Part shown: positions 19,994 through 22,050 of the stretch, piece after piece
Numbering within the stretch: position 1 is the first letter of the stretch
How the letters are laid out: every line of letters begins with the position of its first letter
Source of the DNA: Synechococcus sp. SB0668_bin_13
Lineage (GTDB): Bacteria > Cyanobacteriota > Cyanobacteriia > PCC-6307 > Cyanobiaceae
Direction: 5' to 3'
Length of the DNA stretch: 36,787 nt
Assembly: GCA_009836025.1 (NCBI GenBank)
Contig: VXWH01000133.1
Span: forward strand, 1 to 36,787
Translations under genes and position numbers: made by a program
Notes under the pieces: generated by a model
The model's input: the letters and a program-made list of their open reading frames with translations, nothing else
What the model was told of the DNA's origin: nothing
Databases searched by the model: none

Positions 19994-20150
19994 GGAGACC
20001 AGGGAAGGTCACCGTTTCCCCACAACCGCAAAGACTGAAAAGCCGCAACAACAGACCACAGCGGGTTTCTCTTCCCCCTCCTCCCTTCTCCCCATCGGGC
20101 TTCCCCAAGCCCCAAGCCAGCACAAGGGCAATTTCCCGCTGCTCCCTGGC
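19981..20150 (+). mobile_element. MITE-like repeat, copy B
   Basis: Left end TTGTTCTGGATAAGGAGACCAGGGAAGGTCACCGTTTCCCCAC; internal AAAGCCGCAACAACAGACCACAGCGGG and GGGCTTCCCCAAGCCCCAAGCCAGC (20097-20121). Right end degraded. Confidence 0.65.
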
Positions 20151-20190
20151 ATCGCACCCGCCCAGTCTATCTTCGGATCAAGCATCAGTC

Positions 20191-21735
20191 TCATGTCGGT
20201 CCTCCCACCTTCGGGTGGGGCAATCTCGCCCGCGCCTCGTCCAGAAACTTGCCCCATGCCTTCGCGCCCTTGCGCGTGTTGCAGTTGCGGCACAGGCCGA
20301 TCCGGTTTGATTGGTCGTCCGCGCCGCCGCGTGACTTCGGAATACGATGGTCCAGGTCCAGATCTTCCGCTCGTAGCCCTTCCGATGTGCAATAGGGGTT
20401 GGCGCAGCGGCGCCCTTGATTGTTCCACAAGAGGACACGCAGCTTGGCGTCCGTCACGTGTTGAATGTCGGAACGTCGCGGCGGGTGCTTCCGGGCCGTT
20501 ACGGGTTTGCCGTCAATCGCCTCGAACAGCCCGGTTTCCTCCCGGAGCCGATCAAGCGTGACGGTCTCCGTCACCGGGTCGATATCCATGCCGATCCACC
20601 GGCGACGCAATTGCTCTGCGGCTACGCATGTCGTGGCGCATCCAGCGAACGGATCCATCACAAGGTCGCCCTCATTCGAGGATACTTCGACGATGCGCCG
20701 GTAGAGTTTCAAAGGCTTCTGCGTTCTCCATCCCGTGTGCTCTCTCGAGCGTGACGAAACCGGCGGAATGTTCACGATCAAATCGCTGGCGTAGATGCCG
20801 GGCAATGTGGACAAATACTTTTTGTAGCGCGGAATCCCGCCGGCCTTTCGCGGCCAGTGAATCAACCCGGCATCGTCCAACGCCTCGCACTTCGACAGCG
20901 CATTGAGCGATTCGTAGTTGTCAGGCAGTCCGGCATCGGGGGGGAACTTGTTGCGCGGAGGGGGCGCCCATGCCCGTCCGGCGGATGGCGTCACGCCTCT
21001 GAACGGCTTGTAGGCTTCCGGGCCACCCTCCTTTCCGCCGGTGAGGTCCGCGTCTTCCCACGGGCCGCGCTCATCCTTGCGCCAGTCGCTCCCATAGGCG
21101 GGATCGAACGGGTCGTATTGCTGATTCCAGGTTGGTTTCGCGCCCTTGGCGTAGTAGAGAATCCGATCACAGTTGCGGACGTAACGGGTAGGATTCAGAC
21201 CCTTTCCCGCCGTGCGTTTCCAGACAATCTCGTTGCGGAAGTTCGACCGTCCGAACACGGCATCCAACAGAAGACGCAGGTAGCTGTTCGCGGCATCGTC
21301 GCAATGCAGGTACAGACTCCCCGTCGGTTTGAGAATCCGGTGCATCTCGACCACGCGGGGAGCCATCCATGCGAGGAAGGCCGCGATGGAGTTTTCAACG
21401 CCAGTCTCGATGCCCCGATCCGTAACCTGCCCGCCCTCGATGACAACCGCCGCCTCAATAACCTCTTTGATGGCCGGATGGTCAGTCGCCAGCAAATCGT
21501 GCCACTCGTCAGTAACCTCGTCCCATCGCCAACGGTCATCGAACCGCTGCGTGGCGGCTTTGCTGCCGAGGGGCGCGTTGAAACTGCGCTTGGCGTTGAA
21601 GGGGGGATCAGTGGCGATCAGGTCTACGGTCTCGGAGTCCATGCCGCGCAGGACGCGCAGGTTGTCCGCGACGTAGAGTGTTCGGTTCGGGAGAAACATG
21701 GCAGCGACGGTAATCGAGCTTGCGGACCGCGTCAA
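20191..21735 (-). CDS. Beta-type site-specific DNA methyltransferase fused to a C-terminal HNH endonuclease domain
   Basis: 514 aa: catalytic motif IV TDPPFNAKRSF near the N-terminus, SAM motif I VMDPFAGCATTCVAAEQLRRRWIGMDI late in the chain (beta order), then HNH signature CANPYC...LDLDHRIPKSRGGADDQSNRIGLCRNCNTRKGAKAW. Confidence 0.93.
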   Translation of the reverse strand: MTRSASSITVAAMFLPNRTLYVADNLRVLRGMDSETVDLIATDPPFNAKRSFNAPLGSKAATQRFDDRWRWDEVTDEWHDLLATDHPAIKEVIEAAVVIEGGQVTDRGIETGVENSIAAFLAWMAPRVVEMHRILKPTGSLYLHCDDAANSYLRLLLDAVFGRSNFRNEIVWKRTAGKGLNPTRYVRNCDRILYYAKGAKPTWNQQYDPFDPAYGSDWRKDERGPWEDADLTGGKEGGPEAYKPFRGVTPSAGRAWAPPPRNKFPPDAGLPDNYESLNALSKCEALDDAGLIHWPRKAGGIPRYKKYLSTLPGIYASDLIVNIPPVSSRSREHTGWRTQKPLKLYRRIVEVSSNEGDLVMDPFAGCATTCVAAEQLRRRWIGMDIDPVTETVTLDRLREETGLFEAIDGKPVTARKHPPRRSDIQHVTDAKLRVLLWNNQGRRCANPYCTSEGLRAEDLDLDHRIPKSRGGADDQSNRIGLCRNCNTRKGAKAWGKFLDEARARLPHPKVGGPT

Positions 21736-21939
21736 CTACCCCGTATAATCCCAAGTTGAAGGTGCGCAATCTGCGGGTAAGTCAAACCCGATAGCCCCCT
21801 GGGAGGAAGGCCGCCACTCATCCGGCTTCATCGGCGGCATGAGCCGCGACCCATTCCATCACAACGTGCGCACTCCGTAGCCCGTAACCCCGGCGGGATT
21901 GTCCCTATGAGGAAGGATGAATCAGGCGCTGCCTGATCT

Positions 21940-22050
21940 TGGGAGCTCCCTGTTCCCCATCGCAAAAGCTGGAAAGCCGCAACAACAGACCACAGCGGGG
22001 TTCCCTCTCCCCCCGAGTTTCTCTCCTTCCTGCAACAGAGTGAGGGGAAT
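21940..22050 (+). mobile_element. MITE-like repeat, copy C (partial)
   Basis: Shares AAAGCCGCAACAACAGACCACAGCGGG and the preceding CTGTTCCCCATCGCAAAAGCTGG block with copy B. The GGCTTCCCCAAGCCCCAAGCC core is absent. Confidence 0.55.

Follow-up and report, generated by a model that had tools for sequence, protein, structure and literature searches.

A putative single-chain methyltransferase-HNH restriction-modification enzyme in a Synechococcus genome, with some relatives carried by IS1595-family transposons

In type IIC/IIG enzymes, such as those of the MmeI, TstI and TspGWI families, restriction and modification reside in a single polypeptide and rely on one recognition domain (PMC12707154, PMC4752239). 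MmeI-like enzymes begin with a PD-ExK nuclease, followed by the methyltransferase (MTase) and a C-terminal target-recognition domain (PMC4752239). Restriction-modification (R-M) genes are enriched in sponge symbionts, and their lateral transfer between lineages has been ascribed to mobile elements generally (PMC8163846, PMC5099237). Among mobile elements, IS1595-family transposons are known to hold passenger genes, as in tISCpe8 and tISSag10/MTnSag1 (PMC5704250), and ISApl4 has GGGG-type inverted repeats and 8-bp duplications (PMC12561309).

Here we analyzed a stretch of 36,787 nucleotides from Synechococcus sp. SB0668_bin_13 (contig VXWH01000133.1, hereafter the window), for which an initial annotation had described an MTase-HNH fusion in a 514-codon open reading frame at 20191-21735. 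The frame is real and lies on the minus strand, which had been left unstated, but its TTG start is probably wrong. We set it aside in favor of the ATG at 21699, because a relative (L240) begins at the ATG equivalent to Met13. The likely coding sequence thus spans 20194-21699 (minus strand, 502 aa), with the stop codon at 20191-20193. All the motifs that had been named are present in the window protein (P0001, to which residue numbers refer): TDPPFN (motif IV) at residues 42-47, a late motif I (DPFAGCATT) at residues 361-369 and a complete HNH module, LDLDHRIPKSRGGADDQSNRIGLCRNCNTRKG, close to the C-terminus. Pfam places N6_N4_Mtase (2.3e-39, residues 37-387) and HNH (6.2e-11, residues 448-491) in the same chain.

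The order of the MTase motifs is that of the beta class. An N-terminal half containing TDPPFN (21211-21699, minus strand, residues 13-175, border approximate) shows conservation of ~0.70-0.88 per 20-residue block. It is followed by a variable region, the putative target-recognition domain (20740-21210, minus strand, residues ~176-332), where conservation drops to 0.37-0.50 versus ~0.70-0.87 in the flanking blocks, and by the C-terminal MTase part with the late motif I (20572-20739, minus strand, residues ~333-388). The DPPF motif predicts m6A as the product. In the HNH domain (20263-20394, minus strand) the catalytic positions are D462, H463, N477 and N486, and the Cys4 ligands are C444, C449, C482 and C485, with C444 just outside that stretch. 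The predicted structure has a mean pLDDT of 80.6, with lower confidence in the HNH part, and it matches the folds of type III Mod proteins and beta-class m6A MTases, the best matches being EcoP15I Mod (4zcf), 6k0w and M.BceJIV (8urk).

Compared by sequence alone, the window protein resembles type IIC/IIG enzymes in combining MTase and nuclease in one polypeptide. In contrast to the MmeI-like IIG layout, it has the beta-class MTase first, an internal variable region and the HNH domain at the C-terminus, with no PD-(D/E)XK nuclease ahead of the MTase. It also differs from type III Mod in carrying its nuclease in-chain, and no Res helicase partner was found among the neighbors scanned, the remainder of the window having been read by eye only. 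The neighboring genes are cobU, pcxA, a Crp-type regulator and a di-heme oxidoreductase (DHOR); as the initial annotation had stated, no separate restriction endonuclease (REase) gene was seen among them, as there would be in a type II system with a separate REase. Base composition of the gene (z -0.66) was uninformative as to foreign origin. In genome G009, a glycosyltransferase-like gene (L241 5108-5845) separates cobU from the fusion gene, a position where the window has none.

We then compared the borders of the window gene with those in G009. The two genomes have in common a 1,577-bp block (20178-21752 in the window, minus strand, 94% identity) that ends 16 bp past the stop codon. At its other edge lies an inverted-repeat-like motif, GGGATTATACGGGGTAGTTGAC (21728-21752, minus strand), which we infer to be the terminal repeat on the left side of an element of IS1595 type. 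The block starts exactly at GGGATTATACGGGG, and nothing else in the window matches the inverted-repeat core; a search of both strands of the entire window for GGG[GA]?[AC]TTAT gave a single hit, a descriptive count carrying no corrected probability, because the patterns were picked after viewing the sequences. Placement is similar in L135, where the repeat lies ~50 bp upstream of the MTase. The left motif is found once each in the window's genome (G000) and G009 but is absent from six further genomes of the genus, so it is not a dispersed repeat and does not point to additional copies there. At the cobU loci of other same-genus genomes, the ~1.5 kb of flank compared showed no sequence related to the fusion gene. 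We found no transposase match in the window and neither a right inverted repeat nor a target duplication around the gene, and for these reasons the window copy is best described as a putative transposase-less remnant of an IS1595-type element. A 52-nt direct repeat also flanks the gene (20027-20078, plus strand; other copy at 21961-22012, 87%). It is unsupported as a transposon end, since it sits outside the block common to the window and G009; a weaker copy is present in L237 of G009.

The window's genome, a 2.16-Mb draft in 201 contigs, harbors three MTase-HNH fusions in all. One of the two further genes (L002, G000:C158:159-1532) is directly followed by a right inverted-repeat-like end, ACTTTGGCATGTAATTCTC, and the other (L004 1474-2394, on G000:C115) is truncated by the contig end. 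A broken copy interrupted by stop codons is also present (G000:C157:5320-5801). Other fusions occur in same-genus metagenome-assembled genomes (MAGs), and orthologues and paralogues retain both domains. One locus (L022/L167, G003:C97) holds a fusion with a frameshift that disrupts its HNH part. The window's own subfamily was found in three genomes, namely its own, G009 and G443.

A single scan of 84,980 species genomes with a linker-HNH profile gave 94 relatives, a count that says little about the window's divergent subfamily, because the query alignment, which covered the linker and the front half of HNH, was built from the two other cyanobacterial groups and left that subfamily out. The best 80 of the 94 relatives are distributed among seven phyla (Cyanobacteriota, Pseudomonadota, Chloroflexota, Verrucomicrobiota, Acidobacteriota, Poribacteria and Dadabacteria), and many of these 80 come from sponge-symbiont genome sets. 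The jk18x bins derive from Ircinia (PMC9531527), the names of Spongia_Bin9 and S. spongiarum LMB point to sponge hosts and, judging from the letters of their names, the CAR, COS and RHO sets fit the Carteriospongia, Coscinoderma and Rhopaloeides of PMC8163846. Sponge origin was read from set titles and the papers cited; other hits belong to the sets SB06, p16x, OX638, OY282, GM7, SP12, CO363, Plut and others. The titles suggest that many hosts of the family are sponge symbionts. The window's host is probably a sponge-associated picocyanobacterium. A tree of the protein core mostly follows phylum but requires 8 changes for 6 groups (minimum 5). With many of its branches unresolved, the tree by itself is no proof of recent transfer, and MAG binning errors could also misplace contigs among phyla.

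Evidence of mobility came from the surroundings of the relatives. Among the best 80 of the 94, 20 loci hold a complete or residual transposase of the IS1595 family close to the fusion gene, all of them in Pseudomonadota or Verrucomicrobiota. The founding paper of this transposon family is reportedly that of Siguier et al. in 2009. No adjacent transposase was detected in the Chloroflexi and cyanobacterial copies of these 80 loci, so transposon cargo describes only part of the family. The relatives' transposase is assigned to IS1595 by NCBIfam NF033547. In L121, L129, L133 and L240, four elements end in inverted repeats and are flanked by perfect 8-bp target duplications (AAACCGAA, CAAATGAA, AAATGGCC and AAACAAAA); they also contain a transposase, detected by tblastn in the first three and as DDE_Tnp_IS1595 in L240, and thus display the full tIS organization. 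L240 belongs to the window's own subfamily and is the closest non-cyanobacterial relative of the window protein (58% identity). Its element is inserted inside parB: removing it with one duplication restores an open, parB-like frame of 498 codons. A Roseovarius chromosome carries four near-identical 4.5-kb units in unrelated surroundings, with inverted repeats (GGGAATTATATAC...) and 8-bp flanks. One of the four is bordered by identical 8-bp sequences and the other three share 8 bp crosswise, a pattern that recombination among the copies or a misassembly would leave. In one such unit (L117; transposase by Pfam), the IS1595-type transposase gene overlaps the fusion gene, and in two elements this overlap is 4 bp. 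With their GGGG-type inverted repeats and 8-bp duplications, these elements resemble ISApl4, and they hold a passenger gene as tISCpe8 and tISSag10/MTnSag1 do. Unlike in the latter, the passenger is an MTase-HNH fusion, and the window copy has no transposase.

Both catalytic parts of the fusion are well conserved. Across 62 fusions, a set that includes some identical copies, conservation is at least 97% both for the MTase motifs and for the key HNH positions (the Cys4 ligands, D462, H463, N477 and N486). Substitution rates indicate purifying selection on the HNH part, with dN/dS of ~0.06-0.14 in 7 of 8 pairs and 0.38 in the window/G009 pair, which has 11 substitutions only. On the other hand, among 216 pairs whose cores are more than 80% identical, 127 have recognition regions (residues ~176-332) less than 35% identical, with segment borders set after inspecting the sequences, and some recognition regions are common to fusions of different phyla. 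By this comparison, the recognition region between the MTase motifs is freely exchanged among scaffolds.

The nuclease itself appears to have been swapped. In relatives from phages and other, free-living cyanobacteria, the same MTase backbone and domain order are kept with a PD-(D/E)XK nuclease (Mrr_cat) in place of HNH (Pfam on two, motif in the rest), and motif I is usually GCGT rather than GCAT. Because sister MTases have Mrr_cat where the fusions have HNH, the C-terminal module is likely to act as a nuclease. The Mrr-type tail is common among MTase relatives in viral contigs. No HNH form was found in viral contigs with either the linker-HNH alignment or the window protein, the latter reaching close relatives only, and a phage origin of the HNH form was therefore set aside.

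Taken together, we consider it reasonably probable that the window protein is a single-chain, type IIC-like R-M enzyme whose family has partly spread as cargo of IS1595 transposons. The beta-class MTase and the HNH nuclease would use one internal recognition region, the MTase protecting sites that HNH would cut or nick when unmethylated, so that protection and cleavage would shift specificity together. Part of the family would move among several phyla as a tIS passenger, with a putative benefit in defense against incoming DNA, in retention of the element, or both. The compact self-contained R-M enzyme proposed in the initial annotation is thus the best-supported functional reading, given one chain with one recognition region, conserved active sites, purifying selection, no partner REase seen and the Mrr_cat alternative. 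Against it stands the absence of the type IIG layout, and its transposon part is weakened by the bare state of the window copy and by a base composition that does not mark the gene as foreign. The alternative that the protein is an orphan or regulatory MTase, using HNH for DNA binding or occasional nicking without restriction, seems unlikely to us. Beta-class MTases such as CcrM are solitary, cleavage by the fusion is a prediction, and the best phage and plasmid relatives match over the MTase part only; yet conservation of the catalytic residues and zinc ligands of HNH equals that of the MTase motifs, selection maintains the HNH part, and a sister clade has a different nuclease in the same place.

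The mobile setting raises another option, in which the fusion is a selfish homing-like or addiction device whose HNH cut promotes its spread or is lethal to cells from which the element is lost, while the MTase shields the carrier. The location of the gene within a mobile unit, the four near-identical Roseovarius copies and the 4-bp overlaps with the transposase gene would all agree with it. The insertions, however, fall in unrelated 8-bp targets with duplications, as is typical of DDE transposition, with no fixed cognate site, intron or intein in the relatives examined, and many copies persist without a transposase. Because of these duplications at unrelated sites, we reject HNH homing as the mechanism of mobility, and we regard the device as improbable, although addiction is conceivable and overlaps with the R-M reading. 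The selfish module suggested by the initial annotation therefore survives in part, as a mobile gene moved by IS1595-family transposition and not by homing. The likely start codon, the paralogues, the transposon and the distribution over several phyla go beyond that annotation. Least credible, and in our view very improbable, is a type IV-like nuclease cutting methylated DNA. HNH does serve as the nuclease of several modification-dependent enzymes, TagI and VcaM4I among them (PMC12707154), but an MTase with an intact active site in the same chain would mark the host itself for cutting, and Pfam matched no SRA, EVE or winged-helix reader in the window protein.

IS1595 elements of this kind are a concrete candidate vehicle for R-M gene transfer among sponge symbionts. 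It is quite possible, if somewhat short of probable, that an IS1595 family carrying a self-protecting MTase-HNH enzyme with exchangeable recognition domains is spreading across phyla in sponge microbiomes and has been a vehicle of the restriction-gene transfer reported there. The compact protein, with one chain, a swappable recognition region and either HNH or Mrr on one MTase scaffold, would offer a natural experiment in type IIC evolution and specificity change. From the sequences at hand, the link of IS1595 with this MTase may be older than the HNH form. We found no report of an MTase-HNH fusion, or of an MTase as IS1595 cargo, in the open-licence literature, which is weak evidence of novelty.

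Several further observations were made among the relatives. MTases with a C-terminal Mrr_cat-type nuclease are numerous (L026-L105 in viral contigs, L187-L195) and apparently form a large fusion family. IS1595-like transposase matches lie near MTase-Mrr genes in L036, L070 and L079, on contigs classed as viral. The Roseovarius transposon seems to have received a second, IS630-like insertion, with HTH and DDE_3 genes 3' of the fusion gene (L117 6593-7922). Finally, L223 (G453:C31) is an MTase in which both the linker and the HNH differ from those of the family, and its fusion may have arisen separately.
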